Shown one piece after another: positions 5,896-32,494 of a stretch of DNA of 43,336 bases (position 1 is the stretch's first letter; the number at the start of each line of letters is the position of its first letter). The DNA is from an uncultured Anaerolineae bacterium. Lineage in GTDB: Bacteria; Chloroflexota; Anaerolineae; JACIWP01. The stretch spans positions 1-43,336 of the forward strand of contig CALIBQ010000081.1 of assembly GCA_938049385.1 (NCBI GenBank), read 5' to 3'. The notes beneath the pieces were generated by a model. The model was not told the origin of the DNA, made no database searches, and saw only the letters and a program-made list of their open reading frames with translations. The position numbers and the translations under genes were made by a program.

Positions 5896-5899
5896 AACT

Positions 5900-8190: not shown

Positions 8191-8223
8191 CTTTTCCACA
8201 ACAGGTAGTGGAAAAGTGGAAAA
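8191..8223. promoter_or_regulatory. Inverted DnaA-like boxes (TTTTCCAC type) upstream of dnaA
   Basis: CTTTTCCAC (8191-8199) and GTGGAAAAG (8208-8216) are perfect inverted arms around an 8-base spacer. A third copy, AGTGGAAAA, follows at 8215-8223. TTTTCCACA differs from the consensus DnaA box at one position. Placement about 75 bases upstream of the dnaA -35 box suggests DnaA autoregulation or a second origin module. Confidence 0.5.
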
Positions 8224-8311
8224 TCCCATACTAAGTGTAGGGGGAAAAGTATCCCAAGCTTAAAACCGGCCGCCGGCGGCAAATTTTAAGGAGTTATTGT
8301 CCAGCACCGGT

Positions 8312-8340
8312 TTGACGCCGGCATCTGCCGGCAGTATACT
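8312..8340 (+). promoter_or_regulatory. Promoter of the mazG fusion gene
   Basis: TTGACG (8312-8317), a 17-base spacer, and TATACT (8335-8340). Five of six consensus bases at each hexamer with ideal spacing. The predicted start near 8347 leaves a leader of about 45 bases. Confidence 0.75.
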
Positions 8341-8392
8341 GCCGGCATGGATGGAGGTTTCCCCTTCGCCATATTTTCCTGCGAGGTGCTCT

Positions 8393-9751
8393 ATGGGTAT
8401 TGTCATCATCGGCCTGGGACCAGGCAACCCGGCTCATCTGACCCGCGAGGCGGACCAATTTCTGCGGCAGGCGGATGCGGTGTACCTGCGCACCGGCCGG
8501 CATCCTATCCTGCCGTACCTGCAGACCTGCTGTGGCAAAGTGTATACCTTCGATCATATCTACGAGGAAAAGGACACCCTGCCGGAAGTGTACGAGGCCA
8601 TCGCCGGCGAGCTGATGCACATGGCCCGGGAGCGGGCCGGCGCCGATGTGTACTTCGCTGTGCCGGGTCACCCGCTGGTCGGGGAGAGCACCACCCAGCT
8701 CCTGCTGGAACGGGCGCCGGCGGAAGGCATAGAAGTGCGCATTATCGAGGGGCTGAGCTTCGTCGAACCGACCCTGACGGCACTGGGGCTGGAGTTCCTG
8801 CAGGGGATACAGGTGGTGGACGCGCTGGACCTGGTGACCCAGCCTTATCCGAGGATCGACCCGGAGCGCGGGGTTATTGTCGGGCAGGTGTACAGCCGGC
8901 AAGTGGCCAGCGATGTCAAGCTCACCCTCGGAGAGCTGTACCCGGACGAACATGAGATTGCGGTGGTGCGTGCCGCCGGCACCCTCGAGCAGGAGGTGAA
9001 GCACATCCCGCTGTACGAGCTGGACCGCCAGCCGGCCATTGACCATCTGACGACCGTCTATGTCCCTCCCTTGCCCTACGGATGTTCCTGGGAGGGACTG
9101 CAGACCGTGGTCGCGCGCCTGCGGGCGCCGGACGGCTGTCCCTGGGACCGCAAGCAGACCCACCGCACCCTGCGCACTCACTTGTTGGATGAGGCCTATG
9201 AGGTGCTGGATGCGCTAGACCGGGATGATACGGACGACCTGTGCGTGGAGCTGGGGGACCTGGCCCTGCAGATCGCCCTGCACATCCAGATTGCCCGGGA
9301 GGAGGGGGAATTCAAGCCGACGGAGGTGTTCGCCGGCATCATCTCCAAACTGCGCCGGCGGCACCCGCATGTCTTCGGCGATGTGAAGGTGCGGGATGCC
9401 GAGGAGGTCATGGTCAACTGGGAGCAGATCAAGCGGGTGGAGCGGGGGGCAGAGGATCACCGCCGGCTGTTCGAGGGGGTGCCGGCCAGCCTGCCGGCGC
9501 TCTCCCAGGCACTGACCTATCAGGAACGGGCGGCGCGCGTCGGTTTTGAGCCGGCGGACGGCGGCCGGCTGGGCCAGCTTTTCGAGAGGTGGATGAACGC
9601 CTCCGATGGGGACGAGGCTCTGCTGGGCGAACTGCTGTTCGCGCTGGTGGATTCGGCACGCCGGCGGGGCATCAACCCGGAAAATGCCCTCCGCGAGGCC
9701 AATGCGCGCTTCGCCGAACGCTTCCAGGCGGCGCAAGAGGCCGGCTCTTGA
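8393..9751 (+). CDS. mazG: Tetrapyrrole methylase-MazG fusion (YabN-type nucleotide pyrophosphohydrolase)
   Basis: 452 residues. The N-terminal half (about 1-225) is a SAM-dependent tetrapyrrole methylase-like fold opening MGIVIIGLGPGNPAHLT, with a PGHPLVGE motif. The C-terminal half is MazG: LRAPDGCPWDRKQTH, LLDEAYEVLDAL and the EELGDL-like VELGDLALQIALH, which carry the metal-binding acidic residues that hydrolyse NTPs to NMP and pyrophosphate. This fusion is known from YabN-type proteins. The ATG at 8393 has GAGGTG upstream; a longer frame to 8297 would start before the predicted transcription start. Confidence 0.93.
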   Translation: MGIVIIGLGPGNPAHLTREADQFLRQADAVYLRTGRHPILPYLQTCCGKVYTFDHIYEEKDTLPEVYEAIAGELMHMARERAGADVYFAVPGHPLVGESTTQLLLERAPAEGIEVRIIEGLSFVEPTLTALGLEFLQGIQVVDALDLVTQPYPRIDPERGVIVGQVYSRQVASDVKLTLGELYPDEHEIAVVRAAGTLEQEVKHIPLYELDRQPAIDHLTTVYVPPLPYGCSWEGLQTVVARLRAPDGCPWDRKQTHRTLRTHLLDEAYEVLDALDRDDTDDLCVELGDLALQIALHIQIAREEGEFKPTEVFAGIISKLRRRHPHVFGDVKVRDAEEVMVNWEQIKRVERGAEDHRRLFEGVPASLPALSQALTYQERAARVGFEPADGGRLGQLFERWMNASDGDEALLGELLFALVDSARRRGINPENALREANARFAERFQAAQEAGS

Positions 9752-18978: not shown

Positions 18979-19566
18979 CTACTCCTCCGCGCCCTCCTCT
19001 GAAGTGCGGGGTTGGTCCGGGTTCTGCCGCCGGCGCAGTTCCTCTTGCAGGCGCTCGCGCCAGTAACGCGCATCCCGGTCCAGCGGATTGGCATAGATGG
19101 CATTGGTGAAATGTTCGATGGCGGTCTCCAGGTCCCCGCGGTCCTTGTAAATCAGCCCCAGATTATAGCTCACATGCGGGGCGGCGGGGTTCAGCTCCAG
19201 CGCCCGCTCGAAGGCGGCGATGGCCTTGCGCTCGCCCTCCGCGGTCATAAAGGGCGGGCGGTCCAGATAGGCGGCGCCCAGGTTGGTCCAGACCATAGGA
19301 TTATCCGGCTCCAGCTCACAGGCGCGCTCCAAGATGGGCACGGCGCGGCGGTGTTCGCCGGCCAAGATATAGGCGCCCCCCAGGTTGATCGCCGCGCTGA
19401 CATTGTCCGGGTCCAGCTCCAGCGCGCGTTCCAGCAAGGGGATGGCCTGGGACGGCAGGCCGGCTTGCAGGAGCCCCGCCCCTCGATTGACCAGCTCCGC
19501 TATGTGGCGGCGAAGTTCTTCCGCGGAGCGCCGGCGCTCGGGCCGGTTGGCGCTTTCCTCTCCCAT
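18979..19566 (-). CDS. TPR-repeat protein
   Basis: 195 residues. About four tetratricopeptide repeats run from residue 30 to 175, for example AIPLLERALELDPDNVSAAINLGGAY written in consecutive 34-residue units, with a charged C-terminal tail. TPRs mediate protein contacts; no catalytic part is present. The ATG at 19566 lies one base after the MFS stop and has GGAG inside that gene, so the order MFS-TPR-PflX is tightly coupled. Confidence 0.9.
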   Translation of the reverse strand: MGEESANRPERRRSAEELRRHIAELVNRGAGLLQAGLPSQAIPLLERALELDPDNVSAAINLGGAYILAGEHRRAVPILERACELEPDNPMVWTNLGAAYLDRPPFMTAEGERKAIAAFERALELNPAAPHVSYNLGLIYKDRGDLETAIEHFTNAIYANPLDRDARYWRERLQEELRRRQNPDQPRTSEEGAEE

Positions 19567-19567
19567 T

Positions 19568-20776
19568 TCATCCACTCCTTTCCTTCCATGCCTGCAGCAT
19601 CGGCTGGGCATCCGCCGGCGCCCTGGTCAGCCAGCCCACAAAGGGCACCGCCAGAATCCCCAGGCCGGCGCTGATCAGATACGCCGTGCGCAATCCCCAT
19701 GCATCCCCCATGGCGCCCAACGCCAGCACGGCAACAGAGGCAGACACAAAGGTCAGCGCCATGTATACGCCGTTGGCCGTCGCCCGAATGTGCGGGAACC
19801 GTTCTTGAATGAATGCCATCAGCACCGGGAGTGTGGCGATATTGGCCAACCCAAGCAGTACCAGCGCCAGGAATATCCACCGACCGCGCATGGCGAGGAA
19901 GATCAGCAGGAGCGCCGGCGTGGCGGCAGTGGAAGCGAACAGCACGGGCCGGCGTCCCAGCCGGTCGCTGATGCCGCCGGCCAGGAGCGCGCCGGCCATC
20001 GCCGCGATCTGGAACACGGTCAGAGATGCGCCGGCCACCCACAGCGATTCTCCCTGCGAAGATACGTACGTGGGCAGGAAGGTGACCAGTGCGGAATTGA
20101 TGAAAGCCCGGCTGAAGATGAGGCCGGCCAGCGGAATCAGGATGCTCCGCATATCCCGGAATGCCCGGGCAAAGGAAAGGCCGGCCACCTTTGGCCGCGC
20201 CAGCGGTGTGCGGCGCAAGCGCCACAGCAGGAACAGCGATACGGCCCAGCCCAGGAACGCCAGGCGATAGGTCCCTTCCAGCCCCCACCATGACACGGCC
20301 GCCACGATCAGTATGGGGCCCAGGGCGCGGGCCAACTCACCCCCCATCTGGAAAAAGCTCAGCCCCAGGCCGATGCGCTGGCCGGCCCAACTGCTCACCA
20401 CCGCCGGCGCTGGCGCGTGGAACGCCGCCGAGCTGAACCCCACGATAGTGACCATCAGCAGTAGCGCCCCAACATTGGGTGCGGCGCCCACGAAGCTCAT
20501 CACTGTGGCAGATATGGCCGGCGCCAGCACCACGAACAGCCGGATATCCACGCGGTCGCTGATATATCCGAGCAAAGGCTGGAAAAGCGAGGGCAACTGC
20601 ATCAGGGTGGAGAGCAGGCCGGCGATGACCAGTGAGATGCCCAGTTTGGGGATGAGCAGGGGCAGTAGCGGCGCTAGAAAGGCCGTGAACGTGTCGTGCA
20701 GGAGGTGGCCGGCGGCCATCTGGAGCACGCCGACCCACTGCCACCGCTTCTGGAGCACCTGCCTTCCCTTTGTCAC
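19568..20776 (-). CDS. MFS transporter, fosmidomycin-resistance-like
   Basis: 402 residues with about twelve transmembrane segments. The N-terminal GHLLHDTFTAFLAPLLPLL and AAFHAPAPA segments resemble Fsr-type exporters. The GISDRLGRRPVLF loop between helices 8 and 9 is the major facilitator signature. Substrate is unknown. The start codon is GTG at 20776 with AGGGGAG upstream. It is the first gene of the six-gene operon; a TATCAT with a weak TTTCAC lies about 40 bases upstream. Confidence 0.85.
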   Translation of the reverse strand: MTKGRQVLQKRWQWVGVLQMAAGHLLHDTFTAFLAPLLPLLIPKLGISLVIAGLLSTLMQLPSLFQPLLGYISDRVDIRLFVVLAPAISATVMSFVGAAPNVGALLLMVTIVGFSSAAFHAPAPAVVSSWAGQRIGLGLSFFQMGGELARALGPILIVAAVSWWGLEGTYRLAFLGWAVSLFLLWRLRRTPLARPKVAGLSFARAFRDMRSILIPLAGLIFSRAFINSALVTFLPTYVSSQGESLWVAGASLTVFQIAAMAGALLAGGISDRLGRRPVLFASTAATPALLLIFLAMRGRWIFLALVLLGLANIATLPVLMAFIQERFPHIRATANGVYMALTFVSASVAVLALGAMGDAWGLRTAYLISAGLGILAVPFVGWLTRAPADAQPMLQAWKERSG

Positions 20777-20887
20777 TTCGCTCCCCTTCCTGCAAATATA
20801 TCACTCTTCATGATACACCCATTTGGCCGTTTTGTGAAACGAGAGCGGCACAGCCGCCAAACAAACCCATAATCCTGAGGAACAGAA

Positions 20888-20920
20888 CAGCCTCTCGATG
20901 GCAAGGCCATCGAGAGGCTG
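20888..20920 (-). terminator. Strong 15-bp hairpin after the seven-cysteine gene
   Basis: CAGCCTCTCGATGGC (20888-20902) and GCCATCGAGAGGCTG (20906-20920) pair perfectly around AAG. It lies just downstream of the minus-strand gene ending at 20953 and upstream of the MFS operon. The T content after the stem is poor, so termination is likely but not textbook. Confidence 0.6.
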
Positions 20921-20952
20921 TTGGCAGGCGAACCCCCGCACGCGGGAGAGAA

Positions 20953-21276
20953 TTAGACCGCGCCTTCCAGAAATTCGATATGAGAATCGGCGGGCAGGAA
21001 AATGCCGGCGGCCACTTCCATGGCTTTCAGGATGGCGGCCGGCACCACACAGCTATTGCGGCACACATGGTCCGATGCACAAGTATATACACGCGTCTCA
21101 TTTAGCGGGCAGGACATCTCATGGGCCACATCCACCTCTCCCAGCGCCTCTGCCAGGGATTGGATGCGCTCGCAGGTGGAGGTAATCTCAAACATCACCT
21201 TCACCGGGCTGACTTTGCGAGCGATAATACTGGTTTCATGCCCGCATTCACCTGCTTTCACCCAGCAGACCGGCAT
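20953..21276 (-). CDS. Small cysteine-rich protein (DUF6951-like)
   Basis: 107 residues with seven cysteines (4, 11, 35, 56, 66, 72, 76) and a C-terminal block VVPAAILKAMEVAAGIFLP. The pattern (ECGHETSI near the start, SDHVCRNSCVVPAAILKAMEVA) reminds me of a small conserved family in methanogens and clostridia catalogued as DUF6951; I give that name with moderate confidence. The cysteines suit metal or metalloid binding. AAGGAGG lies just before the ATG. It is the last gene of the permease/DGC/UspA cluster. Confidence 0.7.
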   Translation of the reverse strand: MPVCWVKAGECGHETSIIARKVSPVKVMFEITSTCERIQSLAEALGEVDVAHEMSCPLNETRVYTCASDHVCRNSCVVPAAILKAMEVAAGIFLPADSHIEFLEGAV

Positions 21277-21409
21277 GTCGGCCCTCCTTGTTCTCCATAT
21301 CCGTCTGACCTGAAAAGAGACTGAGGACGGACACTATCAAGGCATCAGCCACGGTTTGTACCCGCTCAAATTTGCTCACCCGCGTGATCCGTCTGGCGGC
21401 CTTGTTGGT

Positions 21410-21790
21410 TTACTGTTTTTCCTCCCCAGCATACGCACGCGAGGCTTCCTGCCACGCCGCCAAAAATACCGCGAAGGCCGGCATGCCGGCTACGGGTATG
21501 ATGGTAACAGCGGTTTCCAGCAGTTCATGGATGCCGGCGCCAGCGTGCAGCGCGCCAGTGATATGCATCAAGGTAGCCTCCCTGTCATGGAGCGCGGCAG
21601 TGATAGCGGCATGGATCAAAAACTTGTGCTTCTTCGATATCGCTCCATCGTTCAGGGTCAGCTCGTGCAGGCGTAAAAACGCGGTGCACAACGCGGGATT
21701 TGTCTCCTGCAAAAAAGCCACCGGATCCAGCAGTTTTCCAAATTCCCCCGCAAATTCCGTCAGGCTCTTCGCCAATTCCTCTGTTTCCAT
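21410..21790 (-). CDS. Carboxymuconolactone decarboxylase-like (AhpD-fold) protein lacking CxxC
   Basis: 126 residues with the all-helical AhpD/CMD pattern: LTLNDGAISKKHKFLIHAAI, then HITGALHAGAGIHELLETAV. In redox-active members a CxxC stands before the His of the core helix. Here the corresponding stretch reads HDREATLMH, so both cysteines are missing and disulfide reductase activity is unlikely. It might act as a decarboxylase-like or binding protein. It lies between the seven-cysteine gene and an ACR3/BASS permease gene. Confidence 0.75.
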   Translation of the reverse strand: METEELAKSLTEFAGEFGKLLDPVAFLQETNPALCTAFLRLHELTLNDGAISKKHKFLIHAAITAALHDREATLMHITGALHAGAGIHELLETAVTIIPVAGMPAFAVFLAAWQEASRAYAGEEKQ

Positions 21791-21813
21791 CTTCCCCTTC
21801 TCCCCCTTCTCCT

Positions 21814-22788
21814 TTATGCCTCTTCCCTGACCAGCCGCCGTCTCGGTTCACGCGCTTGCAGAACGCGATAGAACGTACTGGCGGTCAGCATTTGGAGGAT
21901 AAAAGCCAGGGCGATCGGCAGTCCCACTAGGGGATGATCTTTATAGCTGGAAAGGGCCAGACCCACAGCGATGGGAAGGTTTTTCATGCCCGAGGAAAAT
22001 GTGACCGCGATGCGCTGTTCCCAGGGGAAGGCATAGCGCCCCAACCAATGGGGAACTATGAAGCCGATGGGGAAGATAAGCAGTACTGCTCCCAACAGCG
22101 CAGGCACCAGCTCCCAGCGGGCGATAATGATCGGCAGGTTGACGTTGCAGGTGGCAAACATCAACAGCACCGCTGTCAATGCGGAAAGGGCCGGCAGTAT
22201 GGGCAGATAAGGTCTGGGGTCCCACGTCCTATCCGCCAACCAGCGTATCCCCACACCCAGCACCAGGGGTAGCAGCAAGATGAGGGCTAACTGCTGGAAC
22301 ATGGCCCAGGGGGTGACGTGCACGCCGGCGCCGGCCAGGAGATACATCAGTGGTGGAATGAGGAAAGGCGCCAGCAACATCGTCAGGGCATTGATCGCCA
22401 TGCCCAGCGGCACATCCCCTTTGAGCAGTGCTGTCCACACCGCCGCCATTCCCGCGCAAGGCACCACCCCAACCAGAATGATGCCGATGGAGAGGTCGGG
22501 GTTGGAAACCAGCAGGCGAGCCAGCGCCCAGGCTACCAACGGCATAAAGACGAAATTCAGCACCAAGCCGGCCAATATCGCGCGGGGCTGGCTGACGAGG
22601 GTGCGAAACTGCCGCGGCGTGATGGTCAGGCTAATGAACAGGACCATGATAAAGGTCAAGATCTGGGAACCGCGCTGCAGGAACCGGCCGGGCTGTGTGG
22701 TAAATACCCCCATGACCAGCCCGAGTATCATGGCCACCACGATAATCGTCTGATAGTTTTTGCGCACGAACTCAGCGAAGCGAAGCAT
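21814..22788 (-). CDS. ACR3/bile-acid-sodium-symporter (BASS) family permease
   Basis: 324 residues with about ten transmembrane segments. The motif GIILVGVVPCAGMAAVWTALLKGD matches the fourth-helix region of ACR3 arsenite exporters, where the Cys in VPCAGM is the conserved transport cysteine. An ATCNVN segment in a later helix also fits. The BASS superfamily includes bile acid, pantoate and arsenite carriers; the VPC motif favours arsenite or another oxyanion. The ribosome site before the ATG is weak. It is the third gene upstream from the cluster's 3' end. Confidence 0.8.
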   Translation of the reverse strand: MLRFAEFVRKNYQTIIVVAMILGLVMGVFTTQPGRFLQRGSQILTFIMVLFISLTITPRQFRTLVSQPRAILAGLVLNFVFMPLVAWALARLLVSNPDLSIGIILVGVVPCAGMAAVWTALLKGDVPLGMAINALTMLLAPFLIPPLMYLLAGAGVHVTPWAMFQQLALILLLPLVLGVGIRWLADRTWDPRPYLPILPALSALTAVLLMFATCNVNLPIIIARWELVPALLGAVLLIFPIGFIVPHWLGRYAFPWEQRIAVTFSSGMKNLPIAVGLALSSYKDHPLVGLPIALAFILQMLTASTFYRVLQAREPRRRLVREEA

Positions 22789-22838
22789 CTCTTATTTTTC
22801 CCCCTTTGCCTCGATGGAGTAAAAATACGGGCATGGGC

Positions 22839-22870
22839 GCCCGGGAGCGGAGGAGCCTCCGCTCCCGGGC
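22839..22870 (-). other. Perfect 15-bp intercistronic hairpin
   Basis: GCCCGGGAGCGGAGG (22839-22853) and CCTCCGCTCCCGGGC (22856-22870) are exact complements with a 2-base centre. It lies between the DGC-domain gene and the first BASS permease. A run of five T residues follows only about 11 bases later. It could be a leaky terminator or a stabiliser that sets relative expression. Confidence 0.65.
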
Positions 22871-22901
22871 CGGCCAGTGCACGCAGTCCTTCCTGCCGGC
22901 G

Positions 22902-23309
22902 CTATTCCAGCGCTTCAACCGCGATTTTTTCAGCGATGCGCTGGACGTCATCCGGATCAAAGTCCAGGGTGGGTATTTTATCCACCCCTTCCTTGGCGAT
23001 CACCACTTCATAGCTGTAAGGGATATTCAGACGCTCCAATACCTTGCTGGCACAGCGATTGGCACAACCGTTGATGACGATCAGCTTCTTAGCCCGCCGT
23101 GCAATGTCCACATGGGCTTTGGACTCCGCCGCTACTGCTGTGATACAGCACATCCGCGCAGAGGCATTGGCATTGGTTAGCCGTACTGCCACCTCATGTC
23201 CGACTTGTCCCACGCTGGCCGCACCATCGCAGGCCAGAATGATGGCCAGGTTTTCCGCTTCCTTAGCACAAAGCGGCAGAATCTTGAATGGGGACTCATT
23301 TTGCGACAT
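22902..23309 (-). CDS. DGC-domain putative metal-binding protein
   Basis: 135 residues. Cysteines occur at 14, 27, 54, 55, 82 and 86, in the order ACDGAASVGQVG, MCCITAV, INGCANRCASK. This matches the DGC family (PF08859, putative zinc-binding), with the name-giving Asp changed to Asn before the third cysteine block. The family's function is not firmly known. GGGAGG precedes the ATG. Its position between two ACR3/BASS permeases suggests a carrier or sensor of the transported ion. Confidence 0.8.
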   Translation of the reverse strand: MSQNESPFKILPLCAKEAENLAIILACDGAASVGQVGHEVAVRLTNANASARMCCITAVAAESKAHVDIARRAKKLIVINGCANRCASKVLERLNIPYSYEVVIAKEGVDKIPTLDFDPDDVQRIAEKIAVEALE

Positions 23310-23370
23310 TTTGCGCCTCCCTATTGAACTTCTGCATGGTTCTCTTGCCGAAAAAGATATCCTTCTGTTC

Positions 23371-23832
23371 TCAGCGCACGATCATCACCGGGCAGGGTGC
23401 GTGCCTGGCGACGTTCCCGACCGTGCTCCCCAACAACACATTTTCCAAGGAGCGCTTGCCGTGTGCACCCAGCACGATCAGCGTGATGCCCAGCTCTTCC
23501 GCTGCGTGCACGATCTCTTTCCATGCGACGCCGATCCGCAGGAGCTTTATCACTGGCACATGGATCGGACCCAGGGATTTTACCTCCTGATCCAATGCTT
23601 CCATCACCTTTCGCTCATATTCTTTTTCGAGCTGGAGGTTGATTTCCTCCGTCCCTTCCGGGCTGAGAAATGGATCCGGCATCTCATCCAGAATGAAGGG
23701 CAAATCCTCTGGGTCCACAACGGTCAGGACATACAGTGTGCCGTCCGAACACTGTGCACATTGAAGCGCCCATTGGCCGGCATGCCGGGCAGGTTGAGAA
23801 AAATCGGTCACCCACAGTATCTTTTTGAACAT
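23371..23832 (-). CDS. Universal stress protein, ATP-binding UspA type
   Basis: 153 residues. The C-terminal signature GAHGKRSLENVLLGSTVGNVA fits the G-2x-G-9x-G(S/T) ATP-binding pattern of UspA-fold proteins, ending HAPCPVMIVR. It starts MFKKILWVTDFS, typical for the family. A TAGGAGGAA site precedes the ATG. Such proteins commonly accompany transporters as nucleotide-responsive partners. Confidence 0.9.
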   Translation of the reverse strand: MFKKILWVTDFSQPARHAGQWALQCAQCSDGTLYVLTVVDPEDLPFILDEMPDPFLSPEGTEEINLQLEKEYERKVMEALDQEVKSLGPIHVPVIKLLRIGVAWKEIVHAAEELGITLIVLGAHGKRSLENVLLGSTVGNVARHAPCPVMIVR

Positions 23833-23863
23833 GGGTTCCTCCTATGACACTGAGGCCTGCATA

Positions 23864-24877
23864 CTATTTCGCTACCGATACATGTGGGCCGGCTGATATA
23901 GGCACAAACCACTGCCGTAGCCTGGGTGCCAATCTCAGGAAGGCCGCCATGAAGCCTATCTGGATGACGGGCTTCAGAGCAAGCACCAGCACCGTCATTG
24001 GGCTGAAGAAAATGGTGGCCAAAGCCAGGGCGATGGAGATGTTTTTGCCGGCTGTCCCGTATGCGAAAGCAATCATATCCTCATAGCCGAACTTTACCAG
24101 GCGGGAGAACCCCAGGGCGCCAGCGAACAGGATGGCGTAAAAGAGCGCCAGGGGAACCAGGACGATGAGGAAATACTGGGGGTGCTGTAAAAGGTTATTG
24201 GACTCCAATGCCATGGAAACAAACACGATCAGATACATGCCAAGCATGGAAGCACCCGGCAGTATGGGCCTGATTTCTCGAAAGCCGGCTTCGCCCCAGA
24301 TGCGGATAATAGCCCGACGGGTCAGGTCTCCTAAGATGAGGGGCACTACCACCGCCAGCAGAATCTCCTTGAACATGCCCCAGGCGTCGATCGCGACGTA
24401 GACGCCGGCCAGGATCGGCATCCACACAGGTATCATCACGATGCTGACCAACAGGCTCAGCGCCACAACGACCAGTGCCATGGCGACGTTCCCTCCCGCG
24501 TAGCCCGTCCAGGCGGCCACCATGCCGGCACAAGGCACTGTCCCTGTCAGAATCAACCCCACGGCAAAATCGGGCCGGTTGTGCAGAAAGAGACTTGCCA
24601 GCAAAGCCGCCAGAAGCGGGGACAGCACAAAGTTAAACAACATGGAAAAGCTGATCAACTTGAGATTCGCAAGAGCCTTACCAACTTCCTCGATGCGCAA
24701 GCCAATCATCATCGGGTAGAGCATGATAAACAGGATCACGGTGGTATAGGACTTCAGCGTTTTGGCTGTTGAGGGAAAAGCCCAACCAAACGCTATGCCG
24801 GCTGCAATCGAAAGGAGTACAAACCATACCAGATTGCGTTCCATCGTCTTAGCGACATGCTGCAGTGACTTGAGCAT
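23864..24877 (-). CDS. Second ACR3/BASS family permease
   Basis: 337 residues with about ten membrane segments. GLILTGTVPCAGMVAAWTGYAGGN repeats the VPCAGM motif of the other permease in the cluster, and RIWGEAGFREIRPILPG and AFAYGTAGKNISIALALA follow. It is clearly paralogous to the 21814-22788 gene but not a close duplicate. The ATG at 24877 has GGAGGTG upstream; an open frame back to 25015 has no support. It is the first gene of the cluster, behind a promoter at 25019-25046. Confidence 0.82.
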   Translation of the reverse strand: MLKSLQHVAKTMERNLVWFVLLSIAAGIAFGWAFPSTAKTLKSYTTVILFIMLYPMMIGLRIEEVGKALANLKLISFSMLFNFVLSPLLAALLASLFLHNRPDFAVGLILTGTVPCAGMVAAWTGYAGGNVAMALVVVALSLLVSIVMIPVWMPILAGVYVAIDAWGMFKEILLAVVVPLILGDLTRRAIIRIWGEAGFREIRPILPGASMLGMYLIVFVSMALESNNLLQHPQYFLIVLVPLALFYAILFAGALGFSRLVKFGYEDMIAFAYGTAGKNISIALALATIFFSPMTVLVLALKPVIQIGFMAAFLRLAPRLRQWFVPISAGPHVSVAK

Positions 24878-25018
24878 ACAGGCACCTCCGCGTCGCGAAA
24901 AAGTTGTCTCGTGCTTGACCTCATCACTACGGTACGTGTGCCCCAGCAGTTTGCGACTGCCCGCCAACAACCCACTGACCGCACAGGACCGCTTATAGTA
25001 TGCAAAAAACTGCATGCA

Positions 25019-25046
25019 ATTGTATCCTGAAATAATATTTTGTCAA
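25019..25046 (-). promoter_or_regulatory. Promoter of the permease/DGC/UspA cluster
   Basis: Minus strand: perfect -35 TTGACA (25046-25041), a 16-base A/T-rich spacer, -10 TACAAT (25024-25019). The palindrome TGCATGCA (25011-25018) and a second TTGCAT-like element follow directly and may be an operator. Confidence 0.7.
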
Positions 25047-25220
25047 ATCTCAAGACAGAGAATATTGAAAAAGTACGGTTGGTGACTATGGCCCCAAACA
25101 CTCCATCCCCTACTCAGGGAAAGGGGACAAGGGTTGGAGTTTCGGAGTTCGCCGCCGGTTGAGGAAGCGAAGCCCCTACAGCGCTTGGCACCGTACGCCT
25201 GGCGCAAGTACTGCGTGTAT

Positions 25221-25249
25221 TTGACGCTATTACAGACCAAAGGTATAAT
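25221..25249 (+). promoter_or_regulatory. Promoter of the rpmH-rnpA-yidD-yidC-khpB operon
   Basis: TTGACG (25221-25226), a 17-base spacer, TATAAT (25244-25249). Eleven of twelve consensus bases, about 50 bases before the rpmH start. Confidence 0.85.
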
Positions 25250-25300
25250 TGTTTGTTGCATTCTGTGATGATATCCATCCTTGCATGGGAGGACAGTGAT

Positions 25301-25438
25301 ATGCCGAAGCGAACATGGCAGCCCAAAGTGCTGCGTCGGCTGCGCGTGCACGGGTTCCGGGCGCGCATGAGCACCAAGGGTGGGCGCAAGGTGCTGAAGG
25401 CCCGCCGGCTGAAAGGCCGCTGGCGGCTGACGGTCTGA
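25301..25438 (+). CDS. rpmH: 50S ribosomal protein L34
   Basis: 45 residues, [19 protein letters not shown] then [21 protein letters not shown], the universal L34 sequence pattern. GGGAGGA lies eight bases before the ATG at 25301. It is the first gene of the operon, in the usual position next to rnpA. Confidence 0.97.
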
Positions 25439-25568
25439 TTGCTCCTGCACGGTGTGGAAACCCTGTCGGCCGCATGGTTGGGATGACGAGTGTATGGGGG
25501 GCTGGAAGCATCGGGCGGCGTTGTGGGAGGATCGCTGAGCGGGCCGGCAAGCCGCGGAAGGTCTGGGC

Positions 25569-26048
25569 ATGTTAAAAAAGCGCTATCGTTTGCGCGGCAG
25601 TGCCCGTTTTGCGGAGGTGCGGGAAAAGGGGAAAAGCGTGGCCCATCCCCTGGCGGTTCTTATCGCTCTGCCCAATGATCTGCCGTACAGCCGGTTTGGC
25701 TTTTCTGTCAGCCGGCGCATCGGCAAGGCCGTTAAGCGCAACCGGGCGAAACGATTACTGCGGGAGGCGGTACGCCTTCAACTATCCAATTTTGCCCCGG
25801 GCTACGATGTCATCCTCATCGCACGAACTCCCCTGCGGGATGCCAAATTTGCCGCGGTCTACGAGGCGGTGGGACAACTGGCGCGGCGCGCCGGCCTCTG
25901 GCAGACCGCCCAGCCTTCTCTTGCGGCCGAAGCCTCGGAGGGGCCGGCGGATTCCCAACCGCAGACAGAAGATGTGGAGAATGAAGATCGTTGCTCTTTG
26001 GCTCATCAAGTTGTATCAGATGACGATATCTCGACTGCTTCCCCCTAG
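25569..26048 (+). CDS. rnpA: Ribonuclease P protein component
   Basis: 159 residues. The conserved RNA-binding RNR motif is in [14 protein letters not shown] (R57-N58-R59), after [12 protein letters not shown]. It assists the catalytic RNA in maturing tRNA 5' ends. It is about 40 residues longer than usual. The extra C-terminus (from about residue 115, Ala/Glu/Asp/Ser-rich) overlaps yidD by 68 bases in another frame and has no family-like features. GGAAGG precedes the ATG. It follows rpmH by 130 bases. Confidence 0.94.
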
Positions 26049-26190
26049 CTGTCGTTTTTATCCGACCTGCTCGCATTATACCTACCAGGCGATCGATAAA
26101 TACGGCCTGCTGAAAGGGGGATGGCTGGGCCTGCGGCGCCTTTTACGGTGTCATCCCTTTCACCCGGGGGGATACGACCCGGTGCCGTAA
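25981..26190 (+). CDS. yidD: Membrane protein insertion efficiency factor YidD
   Basis: 69 residues: [18 protein letters not shown], then [18 protein letters not shown] and [19 protein letters not shown]. These are the complete YidD motifs, including the three conserved cysteines. It helps YidC-mediated insertion at the membrane. An ATG nine bases upstream (25972) is an alternative. The gene begins inside rnpA, as often seen, but with a long 68-base overlap. Confidence 0.95.
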
Positions 26191-26263
26191 GGAGCCGGCA
26201 TGCCGGCGGCCGTTCCGCGCGCAGAGTGACGTGATCCGCTTATCGGAGTAGGAGGAGCTTGCA

Positions 26264-27367
26264 TTGAAACATCGCATTCCATGGGGGCTGGGGGTACTGG
26301 TACCCCTTCTGTTGGCATTTCTTTTTGTCGGGGCAGGGTGCAGTGGCGGCTCTGCAACCCCGCCGCCTATCTGGCCGGGATTAGCATACGCGGATAATGT
26401 GCTGTATCTGGCCGGCCTAGATGGGCATGTTTGGGCTTTGGATATCGGGCGGGGCGGCCAGGAACTATGGCGCGTGCCGCCGGCGGACAGCAAGGAGCCG
26501 GCCGGCTTCCACGGTGAGCCGGCCGTGGCCGGCGACCTTTTGCTGGTCGGCACCTCCGCACAGGGACTGTATGCCCTGGACCGGGCGACCGGTCAGACGC
26601 GCTGGACCATTGCCACCGCCAACAAAGCGGTGCTGGCCCGCCCCCTGGTAAGCGATGGTGTGGCCTACTTTGGTGGAGAGGACAAGAAACTGCGCGCCGT
26701 CGAGGTGCAGAGCGGCCGGGTGCTGTGGGAGTTCCCAACAGAGGGCTGGATCTGGGCATCGCCGGCCCTGGCCGGAGGTCGGCTGTACCTGGGTGCCATG
26801 GACCACCGCCTGTACTGCCTGGATGCGGCCAGCGGGCAGAAGCTCTGGCAGTTTGAGGCCGGCGGCGCCATTGCCGGCACGCCGGCGGTCGGCGGCGGCA
26901 TGGTCTTCTTCGGTTCCTTCGACAGCTCCCTCTATGCCCTGGACGCCGTCAGCGGCGAGCAGAGATGGTCCTTCAAGACCGAGGGCTGGGTGTGGGGCGG
27001 CCCGCTCCTGCATGATGGGGTGGTGTACTTCGGCGCCACGGACCACAATGTTTATGCGCTGGAAGCCGAGACCGGTTCCCTGCGCTGGAAATTCACCACC
27101 GGCGACCTGGTGCGCGCCACGCCGCTCTATCACGAAGGGACGCTGTACGCTGCTAGCCGAGACGGCCGGCTGTACGCCCTGGACCCGCAGACCGGTCAGC
27201 AGAAATGGAGCTTTTTCACTGATGATCCCAAGGCCGGCCAACTGCTCAGCGAACCGGTGGCCGCCGGCGACACCATTTACGTTGCTATTATGAACGGCCG
27301 TGTCGCGGCGCTGGATGCCGCCAGCGGCGCACAACGCTGGCTGGCGAACCCTGCCCAGACCAAGTAA
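26264..27367 (+). CDS. PQQ-like beta-propeller lipoprotein (BamB-like)
   Basis: 367 residues. An N-terminal signal ends in a lipobox VGAGC, so the mature protein is lipid-anchored outside the membrane. Eight repeats of about 40 residues follow, each of the form DGVVYFGATDHNVYALEAE followed by TGSLRWKF, predicting an eight-bladed propeller of the PQQ/BamB type. The residues that bind PQQ in dehydrogenases are not evident, so a scaffolding role is likelier. The start is a TTG at 26264 with AGGAGGAG upstream. It lies between yidD and yidC, which suggests a role in membrane protein biogenesis. Confidence 0.88.
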   Translation: MKHRIPWGLGVLVPLLLAFLFVGAGCSGGSATPPPIWPGLAYADNVLYLAGLDGHVWALDIGRGGQELWRVPPADSKEPAGFHGEPAVAGDLLLVGTSAQGLYALDRATGQTRWTIATANKAVLARPLVSDGVAYFGGEDKKLRAVEVQSGRVLWEFPTEGWIWASPALAGGRLYLGAMDHRLYCLDAASGQKLWQFEAGGAIAGTPAVGGGMVFFGSFDSSLYALDAVSGEQRWSFKTEGWVWGGPLLHDGVVYFGATDHNVYALEAETGSLRWKFTTGDLVRATPLYHEGTLYAASRDGRLYALDPQTGQQKWSFFTDDPKAGQLLSEPVAAGDTIYVAIMNGRVAALDAASGAQRWLANPAQTK

Positions 27368-27409
27368 ATTTTTTCATACCGGGGAAAGACCCCAGGAGGT
27401 ACTGCGCAC

Positions 27410-28285
27410 GTGGGTCAGATTTGGACGCAATTCTTTCTCCAGCCGATGCTGAACGGCCTGCTGTTGCTCTATGGAGCGCTCGGGCAGAACTTCGCCGCGG
27501 CCATCGCTGTCTTCACCATCATCATCCGCCTGCTCACCCTGCCGCTGAGCCTGCCCCAGCAGAGGTCGGCCAAGAAGATGCAGGAGTTACAGCCCAGGCT
27601 CCAAGAACTGCAGAAGAAATACAAGGATGATAAGGAAAAACTGGCGCAGGCACAGATGGAGCTGTACCGTGAGGCCGGCGTTAATCCTTTAGGCGGATGT
27701 CTGCCGCTCCTCATCCAGTTCCCCATCTGGATCGGCCTGTATCAGTCCATCGCGCAGACGCTGGCCGCCGGCCCGCTCCAACTGCTCAACCTTTCCAACA
27801 ATATCTACAAGAGCCTGCCCTGGCTCTCCTCGCTGGTGCCAGTGAAGAACACCTTCCTCTGGCTGGACCTGGGCAAGCCGGACCCGCTGTACATCCTGCC
27901 GGTGCTGGTGGTGGCCACCACCTGGTTCCAGCAGAAAGTGATGTCGCCGCCCTCGTCCGACCCGCAATCGGCATCCATGAACCAGAGCATGCAGGTGATG
28001 TTCCCGCTGATGCTGGGCTTTTTCAGCTTACAGTTCCCCTCCGGGCTGGCGCTCTACTTCGTCGTGTCCAACATTGTGGGCATCGTCATCCAATACTTCA
28101 CGCCAGGTTGGGTGGGTGTGTCGTTCGGGAAAAAGGGCGTACAGCCGGCCAAAGCCGTGACCAGCAAGGCGCCGGCCAGCAGTGTGCCCGCGACCTCCAC
28201 TTCGACGGAGGCGGAGCCGGCCGGGGGACAAACCGCGAAGAAAGGGCAACAGTATGGAAAAAAGAGGAGAAAGCGTCGAGGTTAG
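27410..28285 (+). CDS. yidC: Membrane protein insertase YidC/Oxa1
   Basis: 291 residues, the short Gram-positive-type form without the large periplasmic domain. Five hydrophobic segments are present; R40 in FTIIIRLLTLPLSLPQQ is the conserved groove arginine. The coiled cytoplasmic loop QPRLQELQKKYKDDKEKL and GGCLPLLIQFPIWIGLY are typical. The C-terminus is a basic tail (KKGQQYGKKRRKRRG) suited to ribosome binding. It starts with GTG at 27410, with AGGAGGT nine bases upstream, and overlaps khpB by 32 bases. Confidence 0.96.
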   Translation: MGQIWTQFFLQPMLNGLLLLYGALGQNFAAAIAVFTIIIRLLTLPLSLPQQRSAKKMQELQPRLQELQKKYKDDKEKLAQAQMELYREAGVNPLGGCLPLLIQFPIWIGLYQSIAQTLAAGPLQLLNLSNNIYKSLPWLSSLVPVKNTFLWLDLGKPDPLYILPVLVVATTWFQQKVMSPPSSDPQSASMNQSMQVMFPLMLGFFSLQFPSGLALYFVVSNIVGIVIQYFTPGWVGVSFGKKGVQPAKAVTSKAPASSVPATSTSTEAEPAGGQTAKKGQQYGKKRRKRRG

Positions 28286-29024
28286 AGGGAAGACCGTTGA
28301 AGAGGCCATCGCCGCCGGCCTGGCACAGTTAGGTCTGCGCCGCGAACAGGTGGAAGTGGAAATCCTGAGCCAGGGTAGTCGCGGCCTGCTGGGCATTGGC
28401 GCCGAAGACGCCCGGGTGCGGCTGACACCGATTGTGGAAGCCGCTCCGGCCGAACCTCAGGAACCGGTCCTCTCCGAAGAGTACTGGGAAGGGCCGGAGG
28501 AGGAAGAAGTTCGCGCCGAGGGTCCTAAGGCGCCGGCGCTCTCTCCGAAAGAGGTGGAGCGCATCGCCCGCGAAGCCCTGCAGGGCATCCTCCAGCGCAT
28601 GTCCATCCAGGCCCGCATCGTCTCCAAGCCCCCTACGGAGTTTATGCTGGAAGGGGATAACCCGCCGCCGGTGGTGCTGGACATTCAGGGCCGGGACCTG
28701 GGAGTGCTGATCGGCCGGCGCGGCGAGACCCTGGGCGCGCTCCAATTCCTGGTGCGGCTCATCGTCAATCACCGCACGCGCCGCTGGTACAACGTCGTGA
28801 TTGATGTGCAGGGATACAAGGAGCGCCGCGAACAGCAGTTGCGCCGGCTGGCCGAGCGCATGGCGGAGCAAGTGGTGGCGACCCGCCGCTCCGTGGTGCT
28901 GGAGGCTATGCCGCCGTATGAGCGGCGCATCGTGCACCTTGCCCTGCGCAATCACCCTAAGGTCACTACCCACAGCATCGGCGAGGGGGATAACCGCAAG
29001 GTGATGATTCACCTGCGGCAGTGA
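28254..29024 (+). CDS. khpB: RNA-binding protein KhpB (Jag/SpoIIIJ-associated)
   Basis: 256 residues with three parts. A Jag-N domain (about 1-52) has VEVRGKTVEEAIAAGLAQLG and GSRGLLGIGAEDARV. An acidic linker follows, then a KH domain whose GxxG loop is LIGRRGETLGALQ, and an R3H domain (ERRIVHLALRNHPKVTTHS). It binds RNA together with KhpA and affects cell-wall genes in other bacteria. The start at 28254 lies inside yidC. The operon ends here at a strong terminator. Confidence 0.93.
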   Translation: MEKRGESVEVRGKTVEEAIAAGLAQLGLRREQVEVEILSQGSRGLLGIGAEDARVRLTPIVEAAPAEPQEPVLSEEYWEGPEEEEVRAEGPKAPALSPKEVERIAREALQGILQRMSIQARIVSKPPTEFMLEGDNPPPVVLDIQGRDLGVLIGRRGETLGALQFLVRLIVNHRTRRWYNVVIDVQGYKERREQQLRRLAERMAEQVVATRRSVVLEAMPPYERRIVHLALRNHPKVTTHSIGEGDNRKVMIHLRQ

Positions 29025-29035
29025 TGCGACCAGAA

Positions 29036-29066
29036 GCTCGCCCGGATTTCTCGGGCGGGCTTTTTT
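29036..29066 (+). terminator. Rho-independent terminator of the rpmH-khpB operon
   Basis: GCTCGCCCG (29036-29044) pairs with CGGGCGGGC (29052-29060) with one G-U pair, followed by six T residues (29061-29066). The stop of the convergent rimI gene (29067-29065) is within the T-run. Confidence 0.9.
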
Positions 29067-29724
29067 ATTCTGTGGAGGGCGGTGCCGGCGGCGCGGCTTG
29101 GGCGCGCAGTTTGGCGTGCAGGGTCTCCTTCAGCTCCGCCAGCCGGCGCTGGTACGCGGCGCTGGTGATGATACCTGTGGTCATGATATAGGCGTTCTCG
29201 CCGTTGTCGGAATAGTAGTGCCGGCGTTCCCCCACCACCTCGAAGCCGTATTTGCGGTAGAGCTTCTGCGCCCGCAGGTTGCTCACCCGCACCTCCAGCG
29301 TCACCACCGCCAACCCCAGCTCCACCGCCCGATCAATGACCGTCACCAGGAGCAGTTCCCCCAGCCCGCGCCCGCGCCACTCCTGGGCTACGGCGATATT
29401 GGCCAGGTGCGCCTCGTCCACCAATGACCAGAAGCCGGCATATCCCAGCACCGGCCCGGACGGCGGCGTTGGGGGCGGGGCGGTGCGCAGGAGCCGGTTC
29501 AGCCAGGAAGCGGGCACCGGTTCGCCCAATCCCTGCGCCGGCCGCGGGGTTACGACGAAGTAATGGGCGTGCCGGTTGTGCAGGAGGTCATACTCAAAGG
29601 CGGAGGCCGGCCAAGGGGATGTGAAGCTGGCGCGCTCGATGGGCATGACCTGCTCGATGTCTGACACCTGCATGGGCCGCACCAGGTACGGGATATCGGT
29701 CCAATCCAAAGGGGTATCCCTCAT
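29065..29724 (-). CDS. rimI: GNAT N-acetyltransferase, RimI-like
   Basis: 219 residues. The acetyl-CoA motif is seen in ANIAVAQEWRGRGLGELLL, followed by VTLEVRVSNLRAQKLYRKYGFEVVGERRHYY, which is the RimI pattern for acetylating ribosomal protein S18 or related N-termini. It is longer than RimI (about 150 residues). The extra length is a Pro-rich insertion near residues 55-90 and a C-terminal extension of about 45 residues. The ATG at 29724 overlaps the tsaB stop (ATGA), so it is coupled to the t6A genes. Confidence 0.88.
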   Translation of the reverse strand: MRDTPLDWTDIPYLVRPMQVSDIEQVMPIERASFTSPWPASAFEYDLLHNRHAHYFVVTPRPAQGLGEPVPASWLNRLLRTAPPPTPPSGPVLGYAGFWSLVDEAHLANIAVAQEWRGRGLGELLLVTVIDRAVELGLAVVTLEVRVSNLRAQKLYRKYGFEVVGERRHYYSDNGENAYIMTTGIITSAAYQRRLAELKETLHAKLRAQAAPPAPPSTE

Positions 29725-30389
29725 AGCGAATCGCCGGCCGTATGCAGGTAAATGGGCGACAGGCTGGCCAGGTCGTCGCCCTGTCCGGAGGCCAGCGCCG
29801 GCCAGGCCATCTCCGCCAGCACCGCCGCGCGGCGCACCGATTGGGCCGGCGAGGCGATAATGGCGCGCTTGCCCAGCGCGGACTGCACCGCCTGCCGCGC
29901 TTCCTCGTCCAGCTCCCCGCAGAAGATCGTCCGTCCGTCCGCCAGCGCCGGCAGTCGCTCCGGCGGGAGGAGCTGAAAGTCTCCCTGCCGGGTCCACTGC
30001 CCGTCCACACTGCGGTACACGGCGGCGCAGAAGCGCCCGCGGCCGGCATGCACCACCGCGCAGACCGGCAGGTCACTGCCGGCAAAGGGCTGGGCCACCA
30101 CATCCAGGGTAGGGATGCCCTTGATGGGAATCCCCAGCGCCAGGCAAAGCCCTTTGGCGACGCTCAGCCCGATGCGCATGCCCGTGAACGAGCCAGGGCC
30201 GATAGCCACCGCCACGCCGCGCAGGCGCGCCGGCTCCAACCGAAGGATGCCGAACATATCCACGATGTTGGGCATCAGCTCGACGGTATGATTATAATCC
30301 GAGAACCAGGTGCGTTCCGCCCAGACCTGACGTTCGTCGTACAGCGCGATGCTGGCGTTGCGGGTGGCGGTATCAATGGCTAACAGCAT
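29721..30389 (-). CDS. tsaB: tRNA t6A biosynthesis protein TsaB
   Basis: 222 residues, ASKHA fold. It opens MLLAIDTATRNASIALYD and carries the TsaB core IGPGSFTGMRIGLSVAKGLCLALGIP. It is a platform subunit that works with TsaD and TsaE to attach threonylcarbamoyl to A37 of tRNA. The ATG at 30389 with GAGGGG upstream gives the family N-terminus. It sits 25 bases after tsaE. tsaD is not in this window. Confidence 0.94.
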   Translation of the reverse strand: MLLAIDTATRNASIALYDERQVWAERTWFSDYNHTVELMPNIVDMFGILRLEPARLRGVAVAIGPGSFTGMRIGLSVAKGLCLALGIPIKGIPTLDVVAQPFAGSDLPVCAVVHAGRGRFCAAVYRSVDGQWTRQGDFQLLPPERLPALADGRTIFCGELDEEARQAVQSALGKRAIIASPAQSVRRAAVLAEMAWPALASGQGDDLASLSPIYLHTAGDSL

Positions 30390-30414
30390 AGGATGGTCCC
30401 CTCGGAAAGCGGTA

Positions 30415-30951
30415 TCAGGGGCGGCCGGCCGATGCGGATGATGCCGGCGGGTGTCCGATGACCGCCGAGCGGTAGGCGGCGAGGATCTCACCGGAGCGCC
30501 GGCCGCCGGCGCGCAGTAAAATGCCGCGCTTGTAGTCGTCAATGAAGCGCATTTCCACCGTCAGGCGGTCCGCCGGCAGGATGGGTTCCGCGCGCTCCGA
30601 CCATTCGATGACGCAAATGCCATCACCGTACAGATATTCCTCGATGCCGATGGCCAGGGATTCGGCCACGGCGTCACCCAGGCGGTACAGGTCCACGTGG
30701 AACAGCTTGAGGCCGGCCGGCGATGTATATTCCCATACCAGGGTGAACGAGGGACTGCGCACCGGCTCATCCACCTGCAGGCCCTGGGCAATGCCCTGGA
30801 CGAAGCGTGTTTTTCCGACCCCCAGCTCGCCGCGCAGGCAGATCACATCGCCGGCCTTCAGCAAAGGGGCCAGATAGGCGCCGAAGCGGCGTGTCTGCTC
30901 CTCGCTGTGGCTGATAAGGTCGAGCGTGTTCTGGTCGATCAGCACCGACAT
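30415..30951 (-). CDS. tsaE: tRNA t6A biosynthesis ATPase TsaE
   Basis: 178 residues. The P-loop is GELGVGKT at residues 41-48, followed by SPSFTLVWEY and LFHVDLYRLGD. The VIEWSERA motif near residue 120 is diagnostic for TsaE. It hydrolyses ATP to reset the TsaB-TsaD complex. The C-terminus is about 20 residues longer than usual and low in complexity. GAGGTG precedes the ATG. First gene of the tsaE-tsaB-rimI operon; a TATAAT (minus, 30999-30994) lies about 45 bases upstream. Confidence 0.95.
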   Translation of the reverse strand: MSVLIDQNTLDLISHSEEQTRRFGAYLAPLLKAGDVICLRGELGVGKTRFVQGIAQGLQVDEPVRSPSFTLVWEYTSPAGLKLFHVDLYRLGDAVAESLAIGIEEYLYGDGICVIEWSERAEPILPADRLTVEMRFIDDYKRGILLRAGGRRSGEILAAYRSAVIGHPPASSASAGRP

Positions 30952-31049
30952 GTCCGCACCTCTTCTCGCTCCTGCCGGCCGGCGTTCACGCGTATTATAG
31001 CGGAAAAATTTCCGTTGGGAAATCTGAGTCTAGATTACCCTACCCCCAG

Positions 31050-31073
31050 CCCCTCCCTGCACGCAGAGAGGGG
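31050..31073. repeat. Short intergenic palindrome of CCCCTC/GAGGGG type
   Basis: CCCCTCCCTGC (31050-31060) faces GCAGAGAGGGG (31063-31073) across AC, with one C-A mismatch in 11 pairs. Similar GC hairpins are seen near 13894-13936 and 25090-25138. It lies in the tsaE-ferredoxin divergent gap. Confidence 0.55.
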
Positions 31074-31124
31074 AGCATCCCCGGCCGGGTGACAGTCACC
31101 TCCAGCACCCTCTTTGTGCGCCTT

Positions 31125-31153
31125 TTGGCGCTGTAAGGCCTTTCGTGTATACT
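31125..31153 (+). promoter_or_regulatory. Candidate promoter of the ferredoxin-fdhD operon
   Basis: TTGGCG (31125-31130), a 17-base spacer, TATACT (31148-31153). The -35 box is part of a small GCGCC-TTTT-GGCGC hairpin. The start codon is about 55 bases downstream of the -10. Confidence 0.6.
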
Positions 31154-31209
31154 ATGAGCGCCCAGGCGGGCCGGCTCCGCATCTCGCCCGCCGGCAGGGA
31201 TGATCTATC

Positions 31210-31617
31210 ATGCATCTCATCACGAAAGCCTCCGTCTGCAGTGGGTGTCTCTCGTGCATGACGGTCTGTTCCACCGTCAATGACGGGTACAGCAGTCTGT
31301 CCAGCTCGCGCATTGAGATCGAGCTGGACGAGTTCGGCGGGAATAACCGCATCTTTGTCTGCCGGCAGTGCGCGGAGCCGGACTGCGCCCGAGCCTGTCC
31401 GGTGGACGCCATTTACAAGGACAATACGCTGGGCGTCTGGCGCGTGGACTACGGCCTGTGCATCGGCTGTCGGGAGTGCGTGGATGCCTGCCGCTTCTCC
31501 GCCATGTTCTTTGACCCGCTTCAGCGGCGGGTGATCAAGTGCGAGCTGTGTGCCGGCAGGGGATCGCCGGCGTGCGTCGAGGCCTGTCCCACAGGCGCCC
31601 TGCGCTTGAAGGCTTGA
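31210..31617 (+). CDS. Four-cluster ferredoxin-type electron transfer protein
   Basis: 135 residues with sixteen cysteines in four groups of four: 10-13-16-20, 51-54-59-63, 84-87-90-94 and 111-114-122-126. This is the DmsB/HycB pattern of four [4Fe-4S] clusters that carry electrons to or from a molybdenum or tungsten oxidoreductase. No signal peptide is present, so it is cytoplasmic. It lies ten bases ahead of fdhD, which points to a molybdo-enzyme, but no catalytic subunit is in this window. Confidence 0.88.
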   Translation: MHLITKASVCSGCLSCMTVCSTVNDGYSSLSSSRIEIELDEFGGNNRIFVCRQCAEPDCARACPVDAIYKDNTLGVWRVDYGLCIGCRECVDACRFSAMFFDPLQRRVIKCELCAGRGSPACVEACPTGALRLKA

Positions 31618-31627
31618 GGCTGTAGCC

Positions 31628-32494
31628 GTGGAATGGGAGATCAAGGGTCTGATGGATAACGATGCAGTCTTCCCAGCGCTGGAACGGCGCCGGTTCCTGC
31701 ACCTCAACGGCATGGAGGTGGCGCCGGCCGAGGGCTTTGTGGTGGTGGAAGAGCCTCTGCAGATTCAGCTCAACGGCCGGCCGATGGCCGTGCTGATGCG
31801 CACACCCGGCCAAGAGAAGGAGTTGGCGGTCGGCTACTGCGTTACAGAAGGTCTCGTCGCCGGCTTCGAGGCCATCAGCCTGGTACAGCACTGCGGCAGT
31901 TCCGTGCCGGCCGCCGGCAGCTTCTCCGACCCGCTGGACATCTCCCGCAATATTGTGAACATCACTACGTTGGATGGGCTGGTCCTCAACCGCGACAGCG
32001 AGGTCGTGCGTCTGGTGCGCTCCGGCTGTGGGCGCGCGGATCCTGGGGAGGTGGCAGAACTGCTGACGCCGGTGCAGAGCGACCTGCACGTGCCGGCGGA
32101 GGTCATTGGCCGGCTGGCGCGCAGTCTGTCGGATAGCCAGCAGGCCTACCGGCAGGCCGGCGGCATTCATGCCGTGGCCATATTCGACGTGCAGGGGAAC
32201 CTGGTGGTGCTCAGCGAGGATGTCGGCCGGCACAACGCCGTTGACAAGGCGATCGGCTACTGCCTCCTGCGGCGCATCCCTCTGGCGGATAAAATCCTGT
32301 ACAGCACCGGCCGCGCCAGCTATGAGATGGTCACCAAAGCGGTGCGTGTCGGGCTTCCTGTCGCTGTGTCGCGTTCCTCTGCCACCACGCTGGCCATTGA
32401 CCTGGCGGAGCGGCTGAACTGCACGCTGGTCGGCTACGCGCGTGGCGGCCGCATGACGATATACACCCACGCCTGGCGCATCATCACGGGTTAG
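31628..32494 (+). CDS. fdhD: FdhD-family sulfurtransferase/formate dehydrogenase accessory protein
   Basis: 288 residues. FdhD blocks seen: EEPLQIQLNGRPMAVLMRTPG, KELAVGYCVTEGLV, GGIHAVAIFDVQGNLVVLSEDVGRHNAVDKAIG and STGRASYEMVTKAV. FdhD passes sulfur to the molybdenum cofactor of formate dehydrogenase. The active loop usually has two cysteines (CGxC); here it reads RSGCGRAD, so only C134 remains. The start is GTG at 31628 with GAGG upstream, and an ATG at 31652 is possible. It overlaps the convergent GDPD gene by four bases. Confidence 0.9.
   Translation: MEWEIKGLMDNDAVFPALERRRFLHLNGMEVAPAEGFVVVEEPLQIQLNGRPMAVLMRTPGQEKELAVGYCVTEGLVAGFEAISLVQHCGSSVPAAGSFSDPLDISRNIVNITTLDGLVLNRDSEVVRLVRSGCGRADPGEVAELLTPVQSDLHVPAEVIGRLARSLSDSQQAYRQAGGIHAVAIFDVQGNLVVLSEDVGRHNAVDKAIGYCLLRRIPLADKILYSTGRASYEMVTKAVRVGLPVAVSRSSATTLAIDLAERLNCTLVGYARGGRMTIYTHAWRIITG

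Follow-up and report, generated by a model that had tools for sequence, protein, structure and literature searches.

The stretch of 43,336 nucleotides (nt) analysed here, hereafter the window, covers positions 1 to 43,336 of contig CALIBQ010000081.1 (forward strand) from an uncultured Anaerolineae bacterium (assembly GCA_938049385.1; genome G000, 3.37 Mb in 85 contigs) and carries on its minus strand a cassette of six genes that combines a cysteine-rich DGC-family protein with two permeases. In reading order, the genes encode SBF1, a permease of the SBF/BART superfamily from an ACR3-side lineage (23864..24877; 337 amino acids (aa); PF01758, 7e-40); a UspA-family universal stress protein (23371..23832; PF00582, 1.4e-30); the DGC-family protein with six conserved cysteines (22902..23309; 135 aa; PF08859, 2.3e-28); SBF2, a second SBF-family permease (21814..22788; 324 aa; PF01758, 6e-28); a CMD/AhpD-fold protein (21410..21790; 126 aa; PF02627, 6.6e-9); and a DUF6951 protein with seven cysteines (20953..21276; 107 aa; PF22263, 1.9e-25). 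Gene calls and Pfam matches bear out the six genes and their order as described in an initial annotation made from the sequence alone, and the absence of ArsR, ArsC and ArsD from the unit, also remarked there, holds within 19500-25250, where no ArsA was seen either. The intergenic gaps measure 23 to 133 bp. A sigma-70-like promoter (25019..25046, minus strand; TTGACA-16-TACAAT, 11 of 12 consensus positions, a pattern match only) precedes the SBF1 start by 142 nt, and a hairpin with a perfect 17-bp stem (20886..20922, minus strand; -36.7 kcal/mol, z -6.1), followed by a weak T-run, lies 3' of the DUF6951 gene and is a likely transcription terminator. The six genes appear to form one transcription unit, and the MFS gene downstream has a promoter-like site of its own. 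SBF1 starts at 24877, later than the listed open reading frame: its homologues in L029 and L044 have a matching MLK start, and a GGAGGTG precedes the codon. The end at 25046 given in the initial annotation coincides with the -35 hexamer TTGACA. A riboswitch leader for SBF1 was considered and rejected, since the Rfam scan of the window gave no match and the leader folds no better than shuffled sequences (z +1.1).

The cassette moves horizontally as a self-contained unit. In a congeneric species (G002), the sequences that flank it in the window (19884-20839 and 25196-32189) are joined with 81 bp between them (L098, contig C34; 84% and 87% identity), and comparison with this empty site gives the cassette an approximate extent of 20840..25195 (minus strand). 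The same six genes are found in G002 at another site, beside DNA matching window positions 5864-9735 (L096, same contig as L029), with an extra, second DGC gene between the CMD and DUF6951 genes. DNA identity between the two species is 73% in the cassette versus 84-89% in the flanks, and the guanine-plus-cytosine content of the cassette is about 0.57-0.59 versus mostly 0.62-0.67 elsewhere in the window. In a second congener (G001), no DGC and no DUF6951 gene was found. The cassette in the window adjoins a plus-strand group (25253-29024) of rpmH, rnpA, yidD, PQQ-like, yidC and jag genes and the copy in G002 sits near a dnaA-like gene, which places each of the two insertions close to conserved genes of the origin type.

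A single-protein scan with the DGC of the window, run over ~85,000 species, yielded 30 loci, 29 of them at 52-86% identity over most of the protein, which are distributed among Anaerolineae, Aminicenantes, Marinimicrobia, Spirochaetes, Bipolaricaulota, Caldisericum, relatives of Thermotoga and archaea. SBF genes are present in nine of these loci versus 0.56 expected at the density of the own genome, a comparison for which the chance probability is a guide only because the loci are related by descent. Orthologues of SBF1 or SBF2 (69-77%) occur in four Anaerolineae loci (L031, L032, L044 and L052), three of which also have DUF6951; CMD orthologues were identified in L029, L031, L033 and L034, and in L029, L032, L037, L052 and L017 an SBF gene has a universal stress protein gene adjacent to it or close by. 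Of 300 further genomes from the phylum, five contain any DGC and six any DUF6951, and a close relative of SBF1 or SBF2 was found in none. The genes do co-occur in other genomes, a point on which the initial annotation had made its proposal depend, and the full set in G002 (L029) together with the excess of SBF genes shows that the arrangement is not fortuitous. A chance assembly of six genes without joint function, for which one could invoke the commonness of the UspA and CMD families and the several loci that hold a subset only, is very improbable, given that the whole set is conserved and has been relocated as a unit between sister species, is bounded by its own promoter and hairpin, and recurs as a subset far above chance. 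On a haloarchaeal plasmid (L064, 3945-6074), adjacent genes upstream of FeoA/FeoB encode UspA, DUF302 and an SBF 'arsenic resistance' carrier, so that UspA and SBF are paired outside the DGC loci as well.

The two permeases, which had been labelled ACR3/BASS, indeed both belong to PF01758, but fall far below all the relevant NCBIfam cut-offs (acr3, TIGR00832, 282.8 bits; bass, TIGR00841, 326; PanS, NF047939, 400): SBF1 scores 125.7, 64 and 71 bits, and SBF2 54.4, 80 and 90 bits, respectively, with the canonical ACR3 of the same genome (contig C36) reaching 463 bits with TIGR00832. In a tree of 30 sequences (branch support given as pairs of values), SBF1 and SBF2 form separate 100/100 clades outside the ACR3 references; the SBF1 clade is on the ACR3 side (92/87, not starred), and that of SBF2 attaches between BASS/PanS and the rest, including ACR3, next to BASS. 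The approximately unbiased (AU) test, which covered the placement of SBF1 only, rejected its sister grouping with SBF2 (p 9e-5), and with it a duplication of one permease into two, as well as its grouping with the bile-acid (BASS/PanS) carriers (p 9e-4). SBF1 thus stands apart from bile-acid carriers, in keeping with the initial annotation; SBF2 is placed by the tree between BASS/PanS and ACR3.

At the residue level, both carriers are of the ten-transmembrane (TM) SBF type and share with ACR3 the TM4 pattern Pro-Cys-x-x-Met-x-x-x-Trp; both read PCAGM, with the Cys aligned to that of [P/R]C[I/T]AM in the ACR3 references, so that the 'VPCAGM motif of arsenite carriers' coincides with the latter in its Cys and Met and departs from them otherwise. 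In TM9, SBF1 reads KNIS and SBF2 KNLP versus FE in all ACR3 references, with Ser and Pro, respectively, at the position of the Glu. The TM4 SN and the Glu and Gln of the TM9 EVGMQN bind Na+ in BASS carriers. These residues are replaced in both SBF1 and SBF2, the GG[TS][AS]SN motif is missing, and ordinary bile-acid carriers are thereby ruled out, despite the common Pfam family and solved homologues (3zux, 4n7w). The Glu of the ACR3 FE motif we take to be Glu305 of C. glutamicum Acr3. According to a review (PMC3317726), that protein depends for transport on its TM4 Cys as well as on Glu305. Judged from model scores and residues, neither permease belongs to ACR3 and neither is a bile-acid/PanS carrier, and an ACR3-like mode of substrate recognition is plausible for both. 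A canonical ars operon is rejected on account of the sub-threshold carriers and the absence of ArsR, ArsC and ArsD. A variant of the arsenite-specific ars operon, with SBF1 and SBF2 as divergent ACR3 pumps, could draw on acr3 being the closest NCBI model for SBF1 and on the tree position of the latter; it is nonetheless decidedly unlikely, because neither carrier reaches half of the acr3 cut-off or has the TM9 Glu, ArsR and ArsC are lacking and a canonical arsR-acr3 pair is already present in the genome.

The DGC protein scores 98.8 bits versus a Pfam gathering threshold of 27 and has the GC...C motif of PF08859 ('putative zinc-binding protein'), but belongs to a subgroup that is compact and highly conserved, has six Cys and reads INGC where the family has DGC. 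Its six cysteines (positions 14, 27, 54, 55, 82 and 86), already counted in the initial annotation, are kept in 27 aligned close relatives wherever the sequence reaches them. The AlphaFold2 model (predicted local distance difference test (pLDDT) 93) is a flavodoxin-like alpha/beta sandwich. Strand 1 is followed by Cys 27, strand 2 by Cys 54-55 and strand 3 by Cys 82/86, so that these cysteines should line one edge of the beta sheet. The best structural match is FldH (Z 8.2, root-mean-square deviation 3.0, 106 aligned), with no match having a Foldseek E-value below 0.001, and the only profile matches to solved proteins, 2pd2 and 2fb6, which we presume to be DsrE-like, are very weak. The DUF6951 protein (89.7 bits versus a gathering threshold of 27) does have the seven cysteines first described, of which four are invariant in the alignment (C11, C35, C72 and C76); its predicted model has a pLDDT of 46, and no solved relative was found by sequence. 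The same genome has a second DUF6951 gene, 41% identical (contig C29, 6858-7154; L022), with no DGC or permease gene nearby, and in another genome of the phylum a member of the family lies among corrinoid-protein and methyltransferase-like genes (L026, 348-6597), which suggests a different context for DUF6951. The CMD protein (36.1 bits versus a Pfam cut-off of 23) has a single Cys and lacks the redox CxxC of AhpD.

ArsR is present in 12 of the 30 DGC loci and ArsP in seven, versus ~0.9 and ~0.1, respectively, expected at the density of the own genome, the ArsP calls being matches to Pfam ArsP_1, which includes other metal exporters as well. One locus (L036; DGC 73% identical) contains genes for an ArsC-like protein, CcdA, ACR3, ArsR, DGC, a second DGC and ArsP halves, and another (L040; 65%) those for ArsP, ArsR, DGC, ArsR and an ACR3 that passes the curated cut-off; with true ACR3, ArsR and ArsP, both are clearly ars islands. 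More distant DGCs occur in an ars operon with ArsR, two DGC genes between, and ArsM and ACR3 above the NCBI cut-offs (L017). The ArsR, ArsP, ArsC-like, thioredoxin/CcdA and true ACR3 genes beside close DGC relatives would fit a soft metal or metalloid as the substrate; and because relatives of the cassette are found among arsenic-resistance genes in many anaerobes, export of a toxic, sulfur-loving element seems its most likely function. Our favoured reading, which we hold tentatively and at somewhat less than an even chance, is that of an export cassette of an anaerobe for a thiophilic toxic metal(loid). The best candidates are arsenicals and antimonials in trivalent form, or else a soft metal(loid) resembling them.

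In the mechanism that we propose, the DGC protein would act as a thiol carrier, binding the toxic ion through its clustered cysteines in the manner of a chaperone, as perhaps would DUF6951 through its own, and would hand the ion, again perhaps together with DUF6951, to SBF1 and SBF2. The two carriers would take it up through the TM4 Cys that they share with ACR3 and then export it, with the conserved Lys-Asn (KN) of the TM9 motif occupying the place of the proton-coupling region of ACR3 and the sodium site of BASS. Two carriers in one unit may serve two forms of the substrate, whereas UspA could tune them to the energy state of the cell and the CMD protein might handle a redox or organic step.

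Several observations weigh against such an exporter. Besides the loss of the TM9 Glu, the cassette lacks an ArsR-type regulator, no characterised member of the DGC family was found in the open-access literature searched, and 11 of the 30 DGC loci have neither ArsR, ArsP nor SBF, partly owing to short contigs. The genome itself encodes a canonical ACR3 with ArsR just upstream (contig C36) and an ArsP with ArsR about 1.8 kb away (contig C53), in addition to a third ACR3-like carrier (APCIGM, RNFE; 247 bits versus the cut-off of 283) at the edge of contig C82 (92-1189; L078), which may be part of a broken-off operon. Arsenite export thus seems to be covered by other loci; the cassette need not be the arsenite exporter of the genome, and this speaks for its serving another form of the substrate or another condition. 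Furthermore, a DGC gene on an Ideonella plasmid lies beside genes for NnrS, hemerythrin and U32 peptidases, near YtfE/NorR (L005, 4200-9855), and SufC-SufB pairs are next to or near DGC genes in distant phyla (L036, L046, L047 and L048), an adjacency for which the export reading offers no account. Both settings would suit a DGC role in the repair of Fe-S or nitric-oxide stress, with the permeases moving a ligand for repair into or out of the cell; this we consider improbable, as neither the window cassette nor its closest relatives contain such genes and ars genes are the more frequent neighbours. Reactive sulfur (sulfite, thiosulfate or persulfide) or another organic or sulfur anion, carried as sulfur on the cysteines of DGC and moved by the SBF carriers, is a minor, although real, possibility. 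It would agree with the NifX-like protein, SufBC and TauE-type permeases (the latter our reading of a weak match) near some DGC genes, with the leaning of SBF2 to the BASS/PanS side, that is, to carriers of organic anions, and with the presumed DsrE-like nature of the faint profile matches of DGC; yet among neighbours with a transport or regulatory role ArsR, ArsP and true ACR3 occur most often, and both carriers have the metalloid-type TM4 Cys without the residues of the BASS Na+ site. Hence, the soft metal or metalloid proposal of the initial annotation is partly supported: the ars genes beside close DGC relatives speak for it, whereas neither permease is an ACR3 and arsR-acr3 and ArsP are found elsewhere in the genome.

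Among known systems, the metal(loid) export cassette envisaged here is reminiscent of the ars operons with ACR3 (ArsY) and ArsP, which likewise use an SBF-superfamily carrier with a TM4 Cys and, as in L017, L036 and L040, may include DGC relatives; it differs from them in the lack of ArsR, ArsC, ArsD and ArsA and in the combination of two non-ACR3 SBF carriers in one unit. In the portions of PMC4435449 and PMC9213503 considered, DGC, CMD and DUF6951 are not named among the ars genes. The Sao (selenocysteine-assisted organometallic) genes of NCBIfam follow a comparable logic of thiol carrier and exporter, and in L018 the ArsP-like efflux gene close to a DGC gene matches SaoE in part, with a score well short of the cut-off; among the scanned window proteins, there was no Sao match. 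A literature search on PF08859, DUF6951 and PF22263 returned only diguanylate-cyclase papers, and no account of a DGC-permease cassette was found in the open-access literature. With less confidence than for metal(loid) export as such, we suggest that the cassette might represent a mobile efflux module of anaerobes, not described before, in which a six-Cys DGC carrier feeds two new SBF subfamilies that combine the TM4 Cys of ACR3 with a KN motif in TM9.

Even if the substrate proves to be a different one, the residue swap in SBF1 and SBF2, with the ACR3 Cys kept and both the ACR3 Glu and the BASS Na+-site residues lost, would still offer a clean test of coupling in the superfamily. If correct, the reading of the cassette as a metal(loid) exporter would provide the first function for the cysteine-rich DGC and DUF6951 families, add two carrier subfamilies that stand between arsenite pumps on one side and bile-acid/pantothenate carriers on the other, and point to metal(loid) defence in uncultured anaerobes of many phyla.

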